64,000 nt of DNA from Meghimatium bilineatum (taxonomy: Eukaryota > Mollusca > Gastropoda > Stylommatophora > Philomycidae): assembly GCA_034231615.1 (NCBI GenBank), contig CM067298.1, positions 27,063,196 through 27,127,195 of the forward strand, in the 5' to 3' direction. Below are positions 9,601-60,990 of this stretch, in pieces. The number at the start of each line of letters is the position of its first letter. Position 1 is the first letter of the stretch. The position numbers were made by a program, and so were the translations under genes. Below the pieces are notes generated by a model. The model worked only from the letters and a program-made list of their open reading frames with translations. It made no database searches and had not been told where the DNA came from.

Positions 9601-9639
9601 ATTTATAGATAATTAATTTCCTTTTCCTTTTCACATCAC

Positions 9640-9905
9640 ACGATATTTTTCAGGCCCTAACCACTCCTTGACCTCACACTCCACCTATTGATCTTCTTTC
9701 TGATGTGACTCTTTTTCCTTAATTTTTTCCTATCATATCATCTTCTATGGTTAGCTACCTTCGTACCATATATGTGTTATCATGTAGACTCGCTGAATTT
9801 CTTTTGTTTTTCCTGATGAAGGTTATATAATCGAAACGTTGTTTATATTTAATTTTTCTTAGTGTGTGTTTTTACTATTGACAATTTAATTTACCTATTT
9901 CCTTA
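9640..9905 (+). mobile_element. Penelope-like terminal fragment with GAAACG motif
   Basis: A pyrimidine-rich stretch leads into TTTTTCCTGATGAA, a perfect small hairpin GGTT-ATAT-AATC, and GAAACGTTG. The same arrangement (pyrimidine-rich lead, CCTGATGAA, short hairpin, GAAACG) occurs at 33.66, 41.35 and 42.13 kb. I infer an old terminal repeat of a Penelope-like retroelement, families known to carry hammerhead-like motifs. There is no coding capacity. Confidence 0.45.
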
Positions 9906-9984
9906 CAGACATGCATTTGTTCTGTGCTATTTTATATCCAGCTATTTTGTTTAACCCCCCTTTCCCCTGAAGCTCTGGTGATTT

Positions 9985-15727: not shown

Positions 15728-16788
15728 TGCCATTTGTTGCCGGTACAGAAAAGGGAGTAAAGAACATAAACCTTGTTTACAATTCGAACATGTCGTAAGA
15801 GGCGACTAAGAAGGTTATAGGAATGGATTTGACTGTCAGATCTTACATAGGGTCAAAATGTCCCAGAAACCAAGCTGAAATCGGATGTGTCAGGCGGAAA
15901 AGCGCAGATATGCGGCAAAACCTTAAACCATAACAAAACGCATTCTATTCTCAGTACAACATCTAATGACAAAATCTTAGGACAATATCTCAGGACAACA
16001 TTTTAGGACAACATCTCAGGACATCATCTCAGGGCATTATCTTAGAACATCTTAGGAAAATATCTCAGGACAATATCTCAGGACAACATCTTAAGAAAAC
16101 ATCTTAGGACATCATCTCAGGACAACATCTTAGAACAATATCTTAGGACAACATCTTAGGACAACATCTTAAGACATCTCAGAACAATATCGCAGGACAT
16201 CTTAGGACAACATCTTAGGACAACATCTTAGGACAACATATCATTACATCTTCTTAGGACAATATCTCAGGACATCTTAGGGCATCTCAGGAAAATATCT
16301 TAGGACATCTCAGAATAAAATAACAGGACAACATCTCAGGACAACGTCTTAGGACACCATCTCAGGACAATATCTCAAGACAAGATCTTAGGACAATATC
16401 TCAGGACAACATCTCATAGCAATATCTGAGGACAACATATCAGGACAACATCTCAGGAAACATCCCAAGAATCTTAGGACACCATCTCAGGATAAGATCT
16501 CATGACAACATCTTAGGACACCATCTCAGGATAAGATCTCATGACAACATCTTAGGACACCATCTCAGGATAAGATCTCATGACAACATCTTAGGACACC
16601 ATCTCAGGATAAGATCTCATGACAACATCTTAGGACACCATCTCAGGATAAGATCTCATGACAACATCTTAGGACACCATCTCAGGATAAGATCTCATGA
16701 CAACATCTTAGGACAACATATCATGACAACATCTCAGGACAACATCCTGCTAATCTGCAGGTGTTTGAGAACCAATACAGAAAAAAGT
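15728..16788 (+). mobile_element. SINE-B copy split by internal minisatellite
   Basis: The 5' three quarters of a SINE-B lie at about 15728-15957 (TGTCGTAAGAGGCGACTAAG, GGATGTGTCAGGCGGAAAAG, CGCATTCTATTCTCAG). The family's end resumes at about 16740 (CATCCTGCTAATCTGCAGG, TTTGAGAACCAATACAG). In other copies these parts are joined by CTCCGGACTACATCCTG. Here that junction is replaced by about 785 bp of a 13-bp repeat whose unit, ATCTCAGGACAAC, is a variant of the SINE's own sequence. The 3' (GAA)n tail is decayed. Confidence 0.8.
15958..16739. repeat. 13-bp minisatellite with 39-bp higher-order repeat
   Basis: Basic unit ATCTCAGGACAAC or ATCTTAGGACAAC, about 60 copies with irregular short deletions. 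From about 16474 to 16720 three variants (ATCTTAGGACACC, ATCTCAGGATAAG, ATCTCATGACAAC) form a regular 39-bp trimer repeated about six times almost without change, the youngest part of the array. Confidence 0.95.
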
Positions 16789-20800: not shown

Positions 20801-21156
20801 AAGACTAACTTTCTGTGTTATTAAATACTCCGGTTTAACATGTCATATACACCTGTTTCTGTGATACCTGATTGTTCAACAATCACAAGCGGTTATGACT
20901 ATTTGTTACTTTCACTTTTAATATATTCAGTTATGTCCTTGACTATGAGTTCGTAAACCGTTAATAAGTTATATGTTGGTTCCAAAATTCCATGATCAAA
21001 CAGGCATAGTATGACTACTATCAGCGCCGTATTTAGACTTGATAACGCCCTAGGCTGTGTGAGATATGGGGCCCTTTATAAGTCCAGATATTATATGTCA
21101 GTGCCAAATATGATTTTTTTAGGCCCCCCACAAAGTGGAGGTCCTAAGCTATAGCT

Positions 21157-21778
21157 ACGCATGTGGTTGCATCTGTGGGTCTCATCAATGGCCCACTAGA
21201 GAAACCACCCATGCAACGGAAAACCTTAGTGGATGACGTGCCGTTATGTTGAGGTTATCTTCTTAGAGAAGCTTCATGGCACGTCATCTATACAATTGTG
21301 CATTTATTTTGTTGTTTAAATGTATTATATTTTGTTGTTTAAATGTGTTTCATGTTTACCTGAATATATATGTAGTTGGGAGGGAGCCAGAGATCTACTG
21401 TGCAGCACTGGGGAGGAGGAAACTGACAGCACTGTTTTTTCCTATGGCTTAGACCCATCACAGAGGCACAGTGACCCAGGACGTGACAATCCTTTTGACT
21501 TTAACATTTGGTTGCATGCCTGGAGCAATAGAGAAGTTTGGCCTAACCAGTAGTCAATTGGTGGCGGGGAATGAGCACAGCGAACCCTGTCTTGGCTGCA
21601 GTGGCTGGGAGCAGTGCATGGGTTGAAACTTACCTTCCTGGAGGTGTGATAGTTATTCTCTGGCTCTGTCCCGGTGTGGGCCGAAAATCCACAGACTTCC
21701 CAGCAATATAATGCCATTTAATGGCATTAGGTCAAAGGGCATGAGCCCATGGACCGCTGGATCAGCAACCAACCAACA
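21157..21778 (-). mobile_element. 622-bp retroposon-like repeat, copy 1 (11-bp TSD)
   Basis: AAGCTATAGCT at 21146-21156 and 21779-21789 exactly brackets a 622-bp unit. Another full copy lies in the opposite orientation at 24295-24918, and a partial copy at 28757-28895. In its own orientation it starts GTTGGTTGGTTGCTGATCC and ends CAACCACATGCGT. Flanking duplications differ in length between copies (11 versus 8 bp) and no terminal inverted repeat is visible, which suits LINE-mediated retroposition better than a DNA transposon. It contains short open frames but nothing recognisable as protein. Confidence 0.8.
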
Positions 21779-24134: not shown

Positions 24135-24990
24135 ACGTATACGACTGAAACATGACCGTCTACAATATAAGACCTATTGGCTAATGGAAAATACAGCCTT
24201 CTTACTGACTAATTTGACTATTATTTGTATTGATTTGTATTGGTCAATACGATTGAGCTTTGTGTGACAGCTAATGAAAATTAAAAGAATAGTCGGTTGG
24301 TTGCTGATCCAGCGGTCCATGGGCTCATGCCCTTTAATCTAATGCCATTACATTGCATTATATTGCTGGGAGGTTTGTGGTATTTCGGCCCACACCGGGA
24401 CAGAGCCAGAGAATAACTATCACACCTCCAGGAAGGTAGGTTTCAACCTGTGCACTGCTCCTAGCCAATGTAGCGAAGATAGAGTTCACTGTGCTCATTC
24501 CCGACCACCAATTGACTACTGGTTATGCCGAACTTATCTATTGCTCCAGGTATGCAACCAAATGTTCAAGTCAAAATGATTGTCACGACCTGAGTCACTG
24601 TGCCTCTATGATGGGTTTCAGTCATAGGAAAAGACAGTGCTGTCAGTTTCCTCCTTCCCAGTGCTGCACAGTACATCTCAGGCTCCCTCCCAACCACATC
24701 TCTGGCTCCCTCCCTCCCATACATATTTATTCAGGTAAACATGAAACACATTTCAACAACAAAATAAAAGCATAATTGTATAGATGACGTGTCATGAAGC
24801 TTCTCTAAGAAGATAACCTCAATATAACGGCATGTCATCCACTACGCTTTTCTGTTGCATGGATGGTATGTCTAGTGGGCTATTGGTGAGACCCACAGAC
24901 ACAACCACATGCGTATGGGAATAGTCAAATGAGTCATTTTGAAAGGTTGAAAGAAATTTTCCATTAGCGGCTGTCCATGAATTACGTCAA
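24135..24990. mobile_element. MITE-like element split by the 622-bp repeat
   Basis: Sequence left (24135-24294) and right (24927-24990) of the inserted 622-bp unit forms a small element with inverted ends: TTGGCTAATGGAAAATACAG on the left and, as complement, CCGCTAATGGAAAATTTC on the right. The similar element at about 36730-36945 keeps both ends uninterrupted. No coding capacity. Confidence 0.45.
24295..24918 (+). mobile_element. 622-bp retroposon-like repeat, copy 2 (8-bp TSD)
   Basis: GAATAGTC at 24287-24294 and 24919-24926 brackets a 624-bp unit that is the reverse complement of copy 1 over its whole length. It begins GGTTGGTTGCTGATCCAGCG and ends CAACCACATGCGTATGG. A 94-codon open frame at 24491-24775 has no counterpart of comparable length in copy 1, so I do not treat it as a gene. 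Confidence 0.82.
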
Positions 24991-28500: not shown

Positions 28501-28756
28501 TTTGCAAAAGAATAGTTTTTGGTTTACCAACATAAAAGATCGATGATTGTCGCCATCGCTGCTGAGTAATTGCTTGTGAGACAATAGTCAAGGGGGGGGG
28601 GGGGCTAATCAACCGCTGTCTAGGCCGCGGAGCACTTATATATTATTTGTAGTCTTTATCATTATTGTTATAATATTATTATAGTCTGTATTTAGTAACC
28701 GTGTGCTATGATGATGATTCATAGTTTAATTAGTTTTACTTCTAACTCGCTCTTTA

Positions 28757-28895
28757 CGCATGTGGTTGCGTCTGTGGGTCTCACCAATTGCCCACTAGAC
28801 AAACCACCCACGCAACAGAAAACCTTAGTAGATGACATCCAATTATATTGAGACTCTCTTATGGAAGCTTTTCAGCATGTCATCTATACAATTAT
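28757..28895 (-). mobile_element. 622-bp repeat, truncated copy 3
   Basis: Begins ACGCATGTGGTTGCGTCTGT, exactly the 3' terminus of the family in reverse orientation, and continues for about 139 bp to the GTCATCTATACAATT word before similarity stops. Keeping one terminus and losing the other fits 5' truncation during reverse transcription. Confidence 0.75.
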
Positions 28896-28967
28896 AGACC
28901 CCCTCTGAGTAGAAGGCTTCTTCAATAGGCATCTGCACTATGCTGAAAGCTGAAGTCTCCTTGATGG

Positions 28968-29185
28968 ATAAATGTTCCATTGTAGGGTAACAACCCTAAA
29001 CAGGAGTGGCTGGAGTAACACATGACAAATATCAAGATAAACAAGAGTAGGTATAAGTATTACCAAAATAAATAAATAAGTTTATTTAGTCGAAACGTCG
29101 TTTGTCTCTGTATCTCGTTGTAAGTTTGTTTTACGTCTTATTTTTGGTAACACTTTTACCTATTTTTGTTTTTGGAAGTCGCCTT
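28968..29185. mobile_element. Penelope-like terminal fragments
   Basis: GTAGGGTAACAACCCTAAAC followed by AGGAGTGGCTGGAGTAACAC is the complement of the right end of the 41257-42299 element. At about 29088 the strand sense changes and TAGTCGAAACGTCGTTTGTC plus TCTGTATCTCGTTG follows. This is a rearranged pair of terminal fragments in inverted order. Confidence 0.6.
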
Positions 29186-29380
29186 GGTATGAAAGAAAGC
29201 TCAGAAAAACCACCTGCACTATACATAGGCAGGAAGCAAGAGATATCGCTCGCAATTCCTGCGGTTCTCAATCAATCAATCGATTTGCTCTTTATTGCAA
29301 CAATTATTATTATACAACTATCTTATCAGCTTTTAAAAAATATATACGCTCATTACACGAAAAAAATTAGCATGAAATCT

Positions 29381-32037: not shown

Positions 32038-32140
32038 ATAAATGGGTAACGACTCTAAACAGGAAATGGATGACTGAGGTAACACAGGGCAAATATCGAA
32101 ATGAACAAAAATAGGTATAAGTGTTACCAAAATAAGTCTA
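32038..32140 (-). mobile_element. Penelope-like end fragment
   Basis: GGGTAACGACTCTAAACAGG, GGTAACACAGGGCAAATATC and ATAGGTATAAGTGTTACCAA match the outer end of the 41257-42299 element in reverse. It stops before the GAAACG motif. A tandem TCTAATAAAAGT run (32135-32172) follows. Confidence 0.6.
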
Positions 32141-32275
32141 ATAAAAGTTCTAATAAAAGTTCTAATAAAAGTTCAATAGAAGGTGGTACTGCTAGTAGAA
32201 CATAATGGAAAATAATACTCACGTGTAAGACAGGTAATGAAGTCCTACTTAATGACGACTAAAACACTACACACT

Positions 32276-32634
32276 ATCACTAATGGATGTAAATATGGTA
32301 CATATAACAAAACAAAACACAGAATATAATCTACAGATGACAATACACCAGGACAAAGTCGACGTTTCGGACCAATAGGCCTTTTTCAAGATACGGACAT
32401 AACATACAAACATAAAAAAACCACAAGTAAAAATGTATGCGTATCCGAGTATGCGTATTACTCGGATACGCATACATTTTTACTTGTGGTTTTTTTAATG
32501 TTTGAATGTTATGTCCGTATCTTGAAAAAGGCCTATTGGTCCGAAACGTCGACTTTGTCCTGTGTATTGTCATCTGTAGATTATATTCTGTGTTTTGTTT
32601 TGTTATATGTACCATATTTACATCCGTTAGTGAT
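32276..32634. mobile_element. near-perfect 359-bp palindrome with two outward GAAACG motifs
   Basis: Left arm 32276-32449 and right arm 32461-32634 are reverse complements over about 174 bp with roughly four differences by eye, separated by the 11-bp spacer TATGCGTATTA. Each arm, read outward, has CTTGAAAAA, the hairpin GGCC-TATT-GGTC and CCGAAACGTCGAC. The right arm abuts the antisense RT within about six bases. The layout (two inverted copies with the motif pointing outward) is the same as in the 41257-42299 element but with different sequence, so I infer a second Penelope-like terminal-repeat family. Confidence 0.85.
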
Positions 32635-33315: not shown

Positions 33316-33459
33316 TATTCCCGTAGGTTGCCATTACTTTCGGGAAGGAACAACCGGTTAATCGAGCACCGTAAAGAGAACACATTCGTTCTAGTCGGCC
33401 ATTTTGGCGGAATTTGAGATAAGTACATTAAAACAAATTATTTGCATTATATCTTATCA

Positions 33460-33775
33460 ATTTCCACTTCTTCTGTGCACTTTCTCTCCTTACTTACCAC
33501 TTTCATCTTCCCCTCACACCCTCTTTCTTCCCTGTCATGCTGCCCTATCTTTTCTTTCTCCGTCATCCCCTTGCTACAGTCCTTCTTTATTTTCTCTTTT
33601 CTACCACCACCATATATGTCTCCATGTAATATTTGTTTACTGTAGTCTTTTGTTTGTCCTGATGAAGTCTTTTTAATCGAAACGACGTCTGTCAATATCT
33701 CGTTGTTAGTTTGTTTTATCGACATATTTTGGTAACAGTTATACTTATTCTTGTTCATTTCGATATCTTAATGTA
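33460..33775 (+). mobile_element. Penelope-like terminal repeat, diverged copy
   Basis: Follows the right arm of the 41257-42299 element in order: pyrimidine-rich CTTACTTACCACTTTCATC, TGTCATGCTGCCC, TATATGTCTCCATGTAATAT, TTGTTTGTCCTGATGAAG, ATCGAAACGACGTCTGTC and ATCTCGTTGTTAG. The hairpin between CTGATGAA and GAAACG is decayed (GTCTTTTTAATC). A solo, degraded terminal repeat. Confidence 0.65.
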
Positions 33776-33854
33776 TATTCTCCTATTTCTACGCCGAAAC
33801 TGACAATTTAACTGGCGTGATTTTAGTTTTCACATGCAGCTCTTGATTTACCTC

Positions 33855-39245: not shown

Positions 39246-39583
39246 GAAACTTATTACATGCTCCTTCATCGGAATCAACATTTATTGACATGGTACTAAC
39301 TGTGTCGTAGATATGCTTAACTTACAGAGGGGATTTTACCTAAAAAGAAATGGCATCCATTAACCCATTATCGTGTGTAAATCTCACTGTTTGACGAAAA
39401 TGTTTAGGACTTTCTTGTGTAACAATAAGGGTGGGTTTTTTTAATTGTTAAATCGACCTTTTGGTTAAGTTCCTAGTGATACAATTTATGTTAGATTTGC
39501 TAAGGGGAGAGTTTGAACACCTCAAGGACCCCCACCCAAACTACGGGCCTGGGTACTGAACATTTTCGCAGAAAAAAACAATG

Positions 39584-40010
39584 ATCCACAGCCCAACTAA
39601 ATACACAACTCTAATAGATACACAACGCAACTAGATACATAGCCCAACTAGATACAGAACCCAAATAGATACACAACCCAACTAGACACACAACCCAACT
39701 AGATACACAACCCAACTAGATACACAGCCCAATTAGATACAGAACCCAAATAGATACACAACCCAACTAGATACACAACCCAACTAGATACACAACCCAA
39801 CTAGATACACAACCCAACTAGATACATAACCCAACTAGATACAGAACCCAAATAGATACACAACCCAACTAGATACACAACCCTACTAGATACACAACCC
39901 AACTAGATGCATAGCCCAACTTGATACAGAACCCAAATAGATATACAATCCAACTAGATACACAACCCAACTAGATAGACAACCCAACTAGATACACAGT
40001 CCAATTAGAC
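39584..40010. repeat. 17-bp minisatellite, about 25 copies
   Basis: Unit ATACACAACCCAACTAG with recurrent variants GATACAGAACCCAAATAG and GATACATAGCCCAACT. The variants recur as blocks, so multi-unit duplication occurred. Confidence 0.96.
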
Positions 40011-40444: not shown

Positions 40445-41256
40445 CCCAGGGTTTCTTAACTGCGCTTAAATACTTTATTATTTTAGCCGATATTGGATGA
40501 GATATATTGTGTTGGCACTGTATATGGTGTGTTTAATATACACTTATTTAAATAGGGCCATTATGTGGTCTGTCCACGAAATAATTTCTTCAAAATTCCG
40601 AATCTGATTATTCCAAGAGGTTGATTATTGTTAATGGTTGCAGAAATTGTAATCCATCTCGGTGACAGTAATCTTTTTCGCTGATTACATGATCCGATAT
40701 TGTTTTTACACAATTCCATGTCTATTTTGAAGAGGTGATCGCGTATCAGAGCATCGATATCCCACATTTTAGACGTCGTATATGGTTCGGCAACTTGCAC
40801 TTTGACCTTAGCTCAAACTAACTTTATCGGGTTAATGTGAGCATGTTATGCCGGTAGTCGCTGAGAAGTCTGGTCATATTGTTGAATGATTGTATCAATA
40901 TAATACAACTTTGTATTATTTATCTTATTCGCAAGCTGTAACAATTTGGGCTTCAAAAAACATCGCCGAAATGGACATGTTCCTCAGTAGGCCATGCCTT
41001 TATTTGGTCTTTTGTGTTTAATGCATTTGTTGTATTTTGTCTTCCTGCGATAATGCACTGTGACAGGAAGTAGTGTCCATTACTAAACATAGTGGTCCTT
41101 CTAGAATTGGAAGAAGATAGTTTTCATCTAATGCCTGAAAATATGCCCATTCATTTCAGCATGATAGTCCCTGCCATTTGAACATTTTCATTGGAAAATA
41201 AGTCTAGCTTCATAGACTAGGCCGCTGGTGCTATTTCCAGCGTACGTGAGTATAAT
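40445..41256 (-). pseudogene. Tc1/mariner-type transposase, catalytic C-terminal half
   Basis: The reverse strand reads AGNSTSGLVYEARLIFQ, then GRDYHAEMN, FQALDENYLLPILEGPLCLV, MDTTSCHS (second catalytic Asp), NTKDQIKAWPTEEHVHF, then RLPAYHAHINPIKLV and VQVAEPYTTSKMWDIDALIR. LNPIELVWAKVK is the family pattern, so the third catalytic residue Glu is Lys here. The first half of the protein is at 42301-42740, cut off by the 1,043-bp insertion. Several frameshifts are present. The same family appears at 55.3-57.6 kb. Confidence 0.85.
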
Positions 41257-42299
41257 GTCAAGATATAACAAAATAGGTAGATGTGTTCCCAAAATAAAAC
41301 ATAAAACAACTTAACAACGAGATACAGAGACAGACGACGTTTCGACTATAAAGCCTTCATCAGGAATAACAAATGACCACAATAAAACAAATCTTACATG
41401 GAGACAAATAGGGTTATAATGAGGAGGACAATAGCAGATAGGTAATGAGGGAAGAAAAGATGTGGAAGCATGACAGGTGAGAAAAACGTATGGGGAGAAG
41501 TTAGTAGTAAGTAGGGATGAGAAAGTAGACTAAATAAATTGAGATTAACAAAGGAAAAGATATGGTAGCAAGTAATTTACATTAAAAATCTGGCTTTCAC
41601 TGTCTATTATTTACTCTGTTGCCATTATGTGTATGTTCATTCATTTGGAAAAACGTAGAGCCAGTCGCTGCATCAGTAAAGTTATTTTACTATTTTATTC
41701 TCATATATCCCCATTATCTGTTCATATTCCCTTCCTGCTGTTCGCTCTTTCTCTTCTGTTCCTGCCTTTTTTGGCCTCTTTCTCTGTCCCCTTTCAATCT
41801 CTCCCACCTGATCCCTCGTACCATCTCATTTTGCTCTTCCCTTACATCATGATTGCTTGTCTATAGCATTCATTCTCTGTTGCCACTTTTGAGGTGAGTA
41901 TTTTTTATGCAATTTACTTGCTACCATATCTTTTCCTTTGTTGATCTCACTTTATTCAGTCTACTTTCTCCTCCCTACTTACTACTAACTACTCCCCATA
42001 CGTTTTTCTCACCTGTCATACTTCCACATCTTTTCATCCCTCATTACCTATCTGCTATTGTCCTCCTCATTATAACCCTATTTGTCTCCATGTAAGATTT
42101 GTTTTATTGAGGTCATTTGTTTGTCCTGATGAAGGCTTTATAGTCGAAACGTCGTCTGTCTCTGTATCTCGTTGTTAAGTTGTTTTATGTTTTATTTTGT
42201 GAACACACCTACCTATTTTTGTATATCTTGACATTTTGCCCAGTGTTACCCCAGCCACCTACTTCCTGTTTAGGGTTGTTACCCTACACTGGTTGATTT
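41257..42299. mobile_element. Penelope-like inverted-repeat element, 1,043 bp, 15-bp TSD
   Basis: GTACGTGAGTATAAT lies at 41242-41256 and 42300-42314, giving exact limits. The left arm (41257-41575) and right arm (41914-42232) are each 319 bp and reverse-complementary with modest divergence. Between them is 338 bp of pyrimidine-rich spacer, and beyond the right arm a 67-bp tail ends with CTGTTTAGGGTTGTTACCCT and ACACTGGTTGATTT. Each arm, read outward, has CCTGATGAA, the hairpin GGCT-TTAT-AGTC and GAAACGTCG. Inverted terminal copies, one shorter than the other, around little or no coding sequence recall deleted Penelope elements. Removing it rejoins the flanking transposase in frame. Confidence 0.9.
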
Positions 42300-42300
42300 G

Positions 42301-42740
42301 TACGTGAGTATAATTCGTTGGAATTTGCTGCTTGGAATGTTTCTTTTATGTTCACCGTCCACTGATTGCCATTCTGTAGTATTTGTGTGGTAATCATTTA
42401 CCCACGATTCGTTTAAATCTTCAATATCATAACATTGGTTTCTCCGCTTCCGGATCTGTATCAAGTATTTACTTCGGAACGCAATCAACTGTGACTTTTC
42501 ACAAATAATATTCCTACAGCCTAAGGTTTTTCTGAAAGTGAAGACGGCGTTACTTCAATTTTCCACAAAGAACATTTAGATTTTTCAATATCGCAATCGA
42601 TCTGCAATTTTACTTTTAATTTCCGAAGAATAACAAGTTCATCTTTTAGCAAACATTTTCAATATCTCCTGCCTTATGACATCTATGTCAAAATCGTCAA
42701 CTTTTATTTTTCTTCCTTGCTTGAAATGAGTACTTTTTTA
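42301..42740 (-). pseudogene. Tc1/mariner-type transposase, N-terminal half
   Basis: The reverse strand reads DDFDIDVIRQEILKMFAKR, a damaged linker with KLQIDCDIEKSKCSLW, then LIAFRSKYLIQIRKRRNQ, DLNESWVNDYHTNTTEWQSV and NIPSSKFQRIILTY. The family pattern around the first catalytic residue is Y-x-DETWVN; here Asp is Asn (AAC). The SSKGQR-x-I-x-x-HAGS region continues across the insertion into the other half. Stops and a frameshift are present upstream of LIAFRSK. Confidence 0.8.
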
Positions 42741-43800
42741 ATCCTGTTTCATCCAGCGGAAAAAATAATGATATATCCAGACCAAGAGCTAATTGAGTTC
42801 GCTTTTTTGTGTTATTAATACCACAATATAAATGATCCATCATAGATTCTGTGCAAAAAATGCTTGTAGAGTAAAACATAGACGTTCTGCATTGTAATAG
42901 ATTTGCACTTTAAACTCATTTTGAATTATATATGAATACAAATTACAAGAAACAAATACGATACCACAATAACCACACGTCGAATACGACTTTGAACGAC
43001 AATTTCAAATTTATATTTGAGACACAGAGATTTCGATGTCTTTGAAAAAACAAAAAATTTTGAAATTCAATGTACTGTTTGCATCACTGCTGTTGGTCCA
43101 ACTGGCTATTTTGGTGCTTTTTATTGGTCACTACGTTGACAACACGCTGGAGTGACCAATTAATAGATAATTGTGTCAATATAAGTGACGTATGACCGTC
43201 AAAAAAAGGTTTTCACTCAGGAAATAATGTTCCAATTCTGAAAAAGGGATATATTCCTGTGAAAAAAAAAAAAAAAAAAAATAAGGGTACCTAGTTTTTC
43301 TTTTAACACAAACAAAATCCCCTGTATTTAGATTACACGACAGCTTAGCCCAGCACGTAGATAGGGAAAACGCCGTGATTGGTGACGTGCTTAATTAGTA
43401 TCATCTTAATTTGGTCAATATATTTTTGCTTTCCGTCACAGCAAATGAAAATATCTCTGCAATCAAATATACAATTTCTGAAATATTCGCTTGAATGTGT
43501 GATTACGAATTTATAAACGGACCATACTAAAAGGAAATGTCGTCTAGAAAATCATTTTACCAAAAAATGATATGTTTATCTATGCGTGAAGATTGCATTC
43601 AGGTTACGAATATTAAACGACCATTAAAAATACATTGCACAAGACACTGTGCAGGTTCTACATTGTGCATCTGTGAAGTATGTAGGTGCCCAATGATGCC
43701 TGATATGTACTTTTTGTAAAATTTATTGTAGTACACATCGATACTAGTACAGTGTGTCTGAAATATAATACTTTTAAAATAAAATTGACAATTGTATTTA
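42741..43800. other. no recognisable gene
   Basis: May hold the N-terminal DNA-binding region of the transposase in unrecognisable form. A 20-bp poly-A run lies at 43263. Otherwise nothing supportable. Confidence 0.4.
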
Positions 43801-60789: not shown

Positions 60790-60990
60790 TCGTACTTTAT
60801 CTACATTTAACAACTCACACTACCTCCCTCTCGCCTCCCCTAGAATATTTTTGCTGTATCCATGATCTGTCAATTCCCACATGGTTGTCATGTAGTCAAT
60901 GCTTAGTTAGGTTGTTCCATTTTGTGTTTGTCCTCATCTTGATAAGACCTTTTGGCCGAAACGGCATTTCGTGCAGTTTTTTTAATTTTA
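60790..60990 (+). mobile_element. Penelope-like terminal fragment
   Basis: Pyrimidine-rich CACTACCTCCCTCTCGCCTC leads to CATCTTGATAAGACC-TTTT-GGCCGAAACGGCATTTCGTG: CTTGATAA, a short hairpin, then GAAACG. It abuts the antisense LINE at about 60985, as the palindrome abuts another LINE at 32634. Confidence 0.45.

Follow-up and report, generated by a model that had tools for sequence, protein, structure and literature searches.

The 1,043-bp insert found in a transposase gene of Meghimatium bilineatum is very probably a double-primed, 5'-truncated insertion of the host's own autonomous Penelope-like element (PLE). It lies in the window, i.e. the 64,000-nt stretch of DNA that we analyzed (C1:27063196-27127195), and it preserves one insertion event with base precision, which bears on the steps of PLE insertion that follow the first cut. 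The value of this locus is that the target can be restored by homology and that an autonomous relative is present in the same genome.

Anatomy of the insert and its target

The features of the window that are needed below are as follows, with the strand where one applies and the basis of each assignment in brackets.

9639-9959, + strand: old related copy, E (nhmmer)
28966-29174: second head-to-head pair, C, with a tailed left arm and a tailless right arm (own target-site duplication)
32044-32147, - strand: tailed related pLTR end, D, possibly the opposed partner of B (nhmmer)
33426-33790, + strand: tailless related pLTR copy, B (nhmmer)
40831-42919, - strand: decayed DDE_3-type transposase, the target split by the insert (tblastn with P0001-P0003; DDE_3 in P0001)
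41242-41256: left target-site duplication, GTACGTGAGTATAAT (exact repeat of 42300-42314)
41257-41589, - strand: 333-bp pLTR copy on the left, without a tail and in inverted orientation to the right copy (gapless inverted match, 94.9%)
41334-41363, - strand: hammerhead-like core of the left arm (identical to 42126-42155; no Rfam match)
41583-41589: 7-bp overlap TAAAAAT at the junction of both copies (genome matches of the right copy begin at 41583; the last base of the left arm is 41589)
41583-42299, + strand: right 5'-truncated PLE copy, 717 bp, made of spacer, right arm and tail (colinear genome matches of 91-95%)
41900-42232, + strand: right pLTR arm (inverted match to the left arm)
42126-42155, + strand: hammerhead-like core of the right arm, CTGATGAAGGCTTTATAGTCGAAACGTCGT (most strongly conserved block of 30 columns in copy E, which is divergent)
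42233-42299, + strand: one-sided 67-bp tail, bounded by two putative RT start sites (most genome copies have it at the 3' end, and the array copy L057 contains it)
42300-42314: right target-site duplication (exact repeat of 41242-41256)

The exact 15-bp direct repeat brackets an insert (41257-42299) in which two inverted arms of 333 bp each, aligned without gaps and differing at 17 sites, are separated by a spacer of 310 bp, and only the right arm is followed by the tail. The preliminary description of this DNA had given the 15-bp direct repeat around 1,043 bp and the 67-bp one-sided tail, all of which were confirmed, together with arms of 319 bp and a spacer of 338 bp, which we measured as 333 and 310 bp without any change in the total of 1,043 bp. 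The best 11-mer match between the two flanks was equalled by a fraction of 0.00015 of 19,808 random flank pairs. As had also been noted, the insert encodes neither RT nor GIY-YIG; it has no coding capacity, and two of its frames gave no match in Pfam. At the 17 sites where the arms differ, copy B agrees with each arm at 8 and thus favors neither as the younger one. Judged from these alignments and from the genome copies described below, the insert is a 717-bp 5'-truncated copy joined head-to-head to a shorter copy of 333 bp over a 7-bp overlap.

When the insert and one repeat are removed, the rejoined flanks form an open stretch of 102 codons on the - strand, and each of three homologous transposases (P0001-P0003, 3 proteins among 60 candidates) crosses the rejoined site in one tblastn segment, with E values of 2.4e-53, 2.9e-67 and 4.9e-38 and with zero residues lost, P0003 extending no more than about 8 residues past the site; as long as the insert is left in place, the alignments are interrupted at it. 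Because the homologs cross the joint without a missing residue, the insertion added exactly the insert and one 15-bp repeat, and the in-frame rejoining that had been proposed from the letters of the sequence holds. Pfam DDE_3 is present in the homolog P0001; the transposase fragments of the window alone gave no significant Pfam transposase match, and a PDB sequence search with the rejoined piece gave no match. The target contains further stops and frame shifts and is therefore a pseudogene.

Parent element in the host genome

We searched the host genome (1.61 Gb, 32 contigs) with the insert and obtained 3,210 candidates at first look, of which 40 were scored, and all counts for the family are therefore lower bounds. 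On contig 25 (L042, L057, L043), a frame containing RT and GIY-YIG is followed by a pLTR unit and then by the next such frame. This unit (L057:836-1548) is 88.5% identical to window positions 41583-42299 and has the same core and tail; the upstream frame ends 1.7 kb before it, and the ATG of the next frame (L043), which is open for 914 codons, lies 279 nt past it. Contig 9 has an RT match that is followed after 2.6 kb, in the same orientation, by a unit of 91% identity. These arrangements on contigs 25 and 9 are what the preliminary description had proposed to look for, namely copies flanking a Penelope RT, and its assignment of the insertion to Penelope-like elements is supported by the occurrence of the same unit as the pLTR between RT and GIY-YIG frames in this genome. 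Features by which EN-containing PLEs are recognized were thus found in the family: RT and GIY-YIG in one frame (that of L043, between pLTR units), tandem or partial-tandem copies forming pLTRs, and 5' truncation combined with an opposed pLTR, a one-sided 3' tail and a short target-site duplication. On this comparison of sequences, we identify the insert arms as the pLTR of an autonomous PLE that this genome contains; the direct parent of the insert may belong to a sister subfamily, because the array unit is 88.5% identical rather than near-identical.

The L043 frame matched Pfam GIY-YIG (E 1.7e-4) with 22.2 bits, below the curated cut-off of 22.6, and RVT_1 (E 4.5e-4) with 20.4 bits, below the curated cut-off of 29.6, and it gave no match in NCBIfam or in a PDB sequence search. 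A protein search with this frame yielded 1,617 homologs among 7,987 scored candidates. Among the 120 homologs listed, 27 carry PF01541 and 23 of those carry PF00078 too, and the five organisms named among the listed homologs are all gastropods (Physella, Arion, Biomphalaria, Littorina and Bradybaena), in agreement with a gastropod host. RT frames stand in tandem arrays with steps of about 5.4 kb on C1 (L028-L030) and C25 (L042-L044); the arrays contain long open frames with nearly equal scores to one query. Six family copies were read about 9 kb upstream, and in one of them (L026) the region upstream of the unit contains pieces that, by their motifs, we take to be PLE-type coding sequence, although Pfam gave no match for them. 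A genome search with the RT piece of L026 produced 7,828 candidates, of which 150 were scored, and open frames of at least 900 codons were present in 31 of these 150 scored rows, some of which belong to the arrays with 5.4-kb steps. The tandem PLE arrays on C1 and C25 suggest recent activity in this genome.

Ends of the family copies

The window copies B, C, D and E were detected by blastn and a profile search. In the genome, apart from the window's own copy, the long matches cover the 717-bp part. Among 19 fetched copies, the unit is followed by ATCCC in 16 and by a variant in 2 (L004, L018), and L010 stops earlier; upstream, shared element sequence continues in 15 of the 19 (in L016 only briefly), with varying endpoints of homology. 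The copies have, in other words, a nearly fixed 3' end and variable 5' ends. Query position 342 was considered as the 5' end of the family and rejected, as it is merely where the right copy of this locus begins. The preliminary description had regarded the insert as a compact non-autonomous form; the spacer turned out to be the upstream part of the right-hand copy, not a separate module, and since 15 of 19 copies extend beyond it, the insert reads as a 5'-truncated copy of the autonomous family, not as a distinct non-autonomous lineage.

In 19 of 20 tailed ends, the sequence that follows ATCCC agrees with the continuing RNA over 0-4 nt, and in the remaining one over 7 nt; this count describes only what comes after ATCCC, the 20 ends having been chosen by this motif. 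Primer-template microhomology at the distal RT start site is a possible reading of these ends. At L057:1553 and in other copies, the host bases past ATCCC are often the same as the 1-4 nt that come next in the element RNA (TTGA).

One tail per head-to-head pair

Eleven head-to-head pairs have both outer ends visible, and in 11 of 11, a small and partly biased sample, one arm is tailed and the other is tailless. They comprise this insert, pair C of the window, and pairs at C2:90.66 Mb, C4:9.76 Mb, C11:37.77 Mb, C15:25.78 Mb, C16:34.02 Mb, C14:11.73 Mb, C1:100.55 Mb (L017), C1:45.55 Mb (L021) and C7:61.1 Mb (L025); L009/L019 (one duplicated locus), C12, D/B and L036 were left out of the count. 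The tailed arm is on the left in 4 pairs and on the right in 7. Of the 11 tailless ends, 7 coincide with CTTGAC, the proximal site, or are a few bases away from it, and 4 are about 10-45 nt upstream.

A clear target-site duplication was found in 10 of the 11 pairs, with lengths of 11-15 bp where clear. In a random-flank control of nine pairs, whose boundaries were placed by hand, which slightly favors matches, 8 exceeded random expectation at p < 0.01 and C4 did not (p 0.21; its repeat needs an indel); L021 and L025, which are outside these nine, have exact repeats of 14 and 11 bp, respectively. The duplication of pair C (28952-28965 and 29175-29188) matches at 12 of 14 positions, a level that 5 of 1,500 random window pairs also attained. 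For D and B taken as one insertion, we found no convincing target-site duplication, and a joint origin is possible.

Because the genome search ranks tailed copies first, it is in part a product of this ranking that every pair has a tail; the absence of pairs with two tails is not. When 53 rows of the genome search were classified, the tail was the endpoint in 41 and the proximal site in 5, while 7 ended elsewhere, and all five proximal-site rows were partners of tailed arms. Pairing is not universal: among 19 loci, 5 showed opposed unit matches, and among 6 longer stretches, 2 did.

We put forward tentatively, as a possibility that we hold to be somewhat less than probable, that in this PLE family each two-sided insertion uses both RT start sites, one per strand: one target strand would prime at the distal site and keep the tail, and the other would prime at the proximal site or just upstream of it and lack the tail. 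If so, the integration complex would have an asymmetric build, with each strand served, so to speak, by its own RNA-bound subunit in a set order, and opposed pLTRs would record ordinary priming on two strands, not accidents. In PAc (Poseidon of the green anole, Anolis carolinensis), start sites on the top and bottom strands did not differ in vitro (PMC11167929), so that a fixed strand assignment is disfavored, at least in that element.

Hammerhead-like core and RNA features

The 30-nt core is unchanged in both arms, and in the divergent copy E it is the best-kept block of 30 columns, with 26 of 30 retained against a mean of 16.7 over 286 windows. It contains what we take to be the conserved letters of the hammerhead. 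Rfam scans of the window and of the insert gave no match, either at the gathering threshold or at E up to 5, helix I was not evident, an attempt to place the helices by hand gave nothing that we would claim, and the three helices of a hammerhead ribozyme were not recovered by covariance model. We call the core hammerhead-like only, because no Rfam family matched at E 5 and helix I is not evident. Core patterns were found in none of the viral and prokaryotic contig collections, which say little here. RNA folds of the tail region had z from -0.6 to -2.1, and a stem of 8 bp that surrounds the proximal start site has 8/8, 8/8 and 6/8 positions paired, in three copies only.

Other features of the window

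A near-perfect palindrome with a 7-nt center (32276-32634), which has CTTGAAAAAGGCCTATTGGTCCGAAACGTCGAC on both strands and adjoins a LINE-type RT fragment, probably represents paired pLTRs from a second PLE family; a search for its target-site duplication found none. At 60957, CATCTTGATAAGACCTTTTGGCCGAAACGGC is a third PLE-like hammerhead-type core, for which no opposed partner was seen. The window also contains an inverted repeat pair of 624 bp (21156-21777 and 24292-24915; 87% identical, 2.5 kb apart), whose end parts recur near 28755-28895, and many minisatellite arrays with periods of 13 to 60 bp (e.g. 1314-2762, 15949-16746 and 39583-40009).

Proposed mechanism and alternatives

The mechanism that we favor starts from the anatomy, the target duplication, the restored target, the identity with the pLTR of an element coding for RT and EN, the recurrent 3' ends and the single tail per pair; priming on both strands, the order of events and the type of joining are what it would add to them. 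The RT and GIY-YIG protein of the element would make two cuts in the transposase gene, one on each strand and offset by 15 bp. The 3' end of the bottom strand would then prime reverse transcription at the distal RNA start site and give the 717-bp right copy with its tail, and the 3' end of the top strand would prime at the proximal start site of another pLTR template and give the 333-bp left copy without a tail, the two start sites lying about 67 nt apart on the RNA. Both copies would stop short of the full element, their 5' ends would be joined over the 7-bp overlap, and gap filling would produce the 15-bp target duplication. The geometry of the duplication is compatible with 3' overhangs, the primers that a two-strand model requires, and the left primer ends with AAT, ATT being the RNA sequence just past the proximal site.

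The alternative closest to this mechanism keeps the same family and the same truncation and derives the inverted arm from self-priming or template jumping of one cDNA, i.e. from a fold-back. Self-priming has been proposed for PLE palindromes in a report on rotifer elements (PMC3846280), and the second family in the window does form a near-perfect palindrome with a 7-nt center; here, however, the arms are unequal in length and outer end and are joined across a short overlap, their outer ends fall at start sites beside the target-site duplication as two initiations would, and a copy of a single cDNA would not omit the tail on one side, so that we consider a fold-back unlikely.

Highly improbable, in our view, is the reading of the insert as a compact, non-autonomous derivative of a PLE, mobile as one 1-kb unit and ending in inverted pLTRs. 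The insert lacks coding capacity and has defined ends with a target-site duplication, as such a unit should, but no second match to the whole insert was found among the 40 scored candidates, the long matches being to the 717-bp part only, and 15 of 19 copies continue upstream into element sequence that the insert does not have. A DNA transposon or MITE with long terminal inverted repeats would account for the long inverted arms at both ends, and an origin of the arms from a DNA transposon had been named in advance as the result that would speak against a Penelope-like insertion. What we saw was a nearly fixed 3' end with variable 5' ends, and in place of symmetric ends and an own transposase there are asymmetric outer ends with a one-sided tail, variable inner borders and identity with a PLE pLTR; target-site duplications of other pairs also differ in length and sequence. 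The contig 25 array overturns this explanation, which is effectively refuted and has a negligible probability.

Comparison with known systems

A close parallel to this insertion is found in the EN-containing Penelope elements of the rotifer Adineta vaga, where copies (Pen2a_Av and others) have opposed pLTRs, a target-site duplication and an optional tail at the 3' end of one of these pLTRs (PMC3846280). The present family resembles them in its RT and GIY-YIG frame, its pLTRs, the opposed pLTR on the 5' side, the duplication and the single optional tail; as given there, the rotifer tail is 31 bp against 67 bp here and the rotifer duplications are 8-10 bp against 11-15 bp here where clear, and unlike the rotifer copies, the right copy here is truncated to the pLTR and upstream non-coding sequence (PMC3846280). 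Opposed pLTRs and short 3' extensions are also described in a curation guide (PMC8969392).

PAc cuts and extends both target strands in vitro, starts at two adjacent sites that bound a 'tail', and prefers cleavage at 5'-ATT (PMC11167929). Our family is similar to PAc in that a pLTR with a hammerhead motif (hammerhead-like here) and a tail is associated with two adjacent RT start sites (putative here), and the ATT preference may be compared with the left primer, which ends with AAT, and the ATT that comes next in the RNA. In PAc the start codon is at the hammerhead and the start sites are in the reading frame, whereas the unit here ends 279 nt before the next ATG; the start of PAc is reported as non-homologous, and the distal start site in our family may involve microhomology.

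Minimal type I hammerheads without helix III occur in PLE pseudo-LTRs, according to two reviews (PMC7761336, PMC6155905), and the present core is similar to them in its CTGATGA...GAAAC sequence, in having at most a very short helix III, and in its location within a pLTR; it differs in lacking an evident helix I and in giving no Rfam match at E up to 5, and its cleavage is putative. Animal retrozymes (PMC7229834) likewise have a hammerhead-type core within non-coding retro-inserted sequence, but they are direct tandem repeats of about 170-400 nt, whereas the core here belongs to a pLTR, that of a coding element. In its basic anatomy the insertion offers nothing new, a tail on one of two inverted pLTRs having already been published, and the insert is an ordinary member of the PLE kind, the value of which is mainly that of a clean record of insertion.
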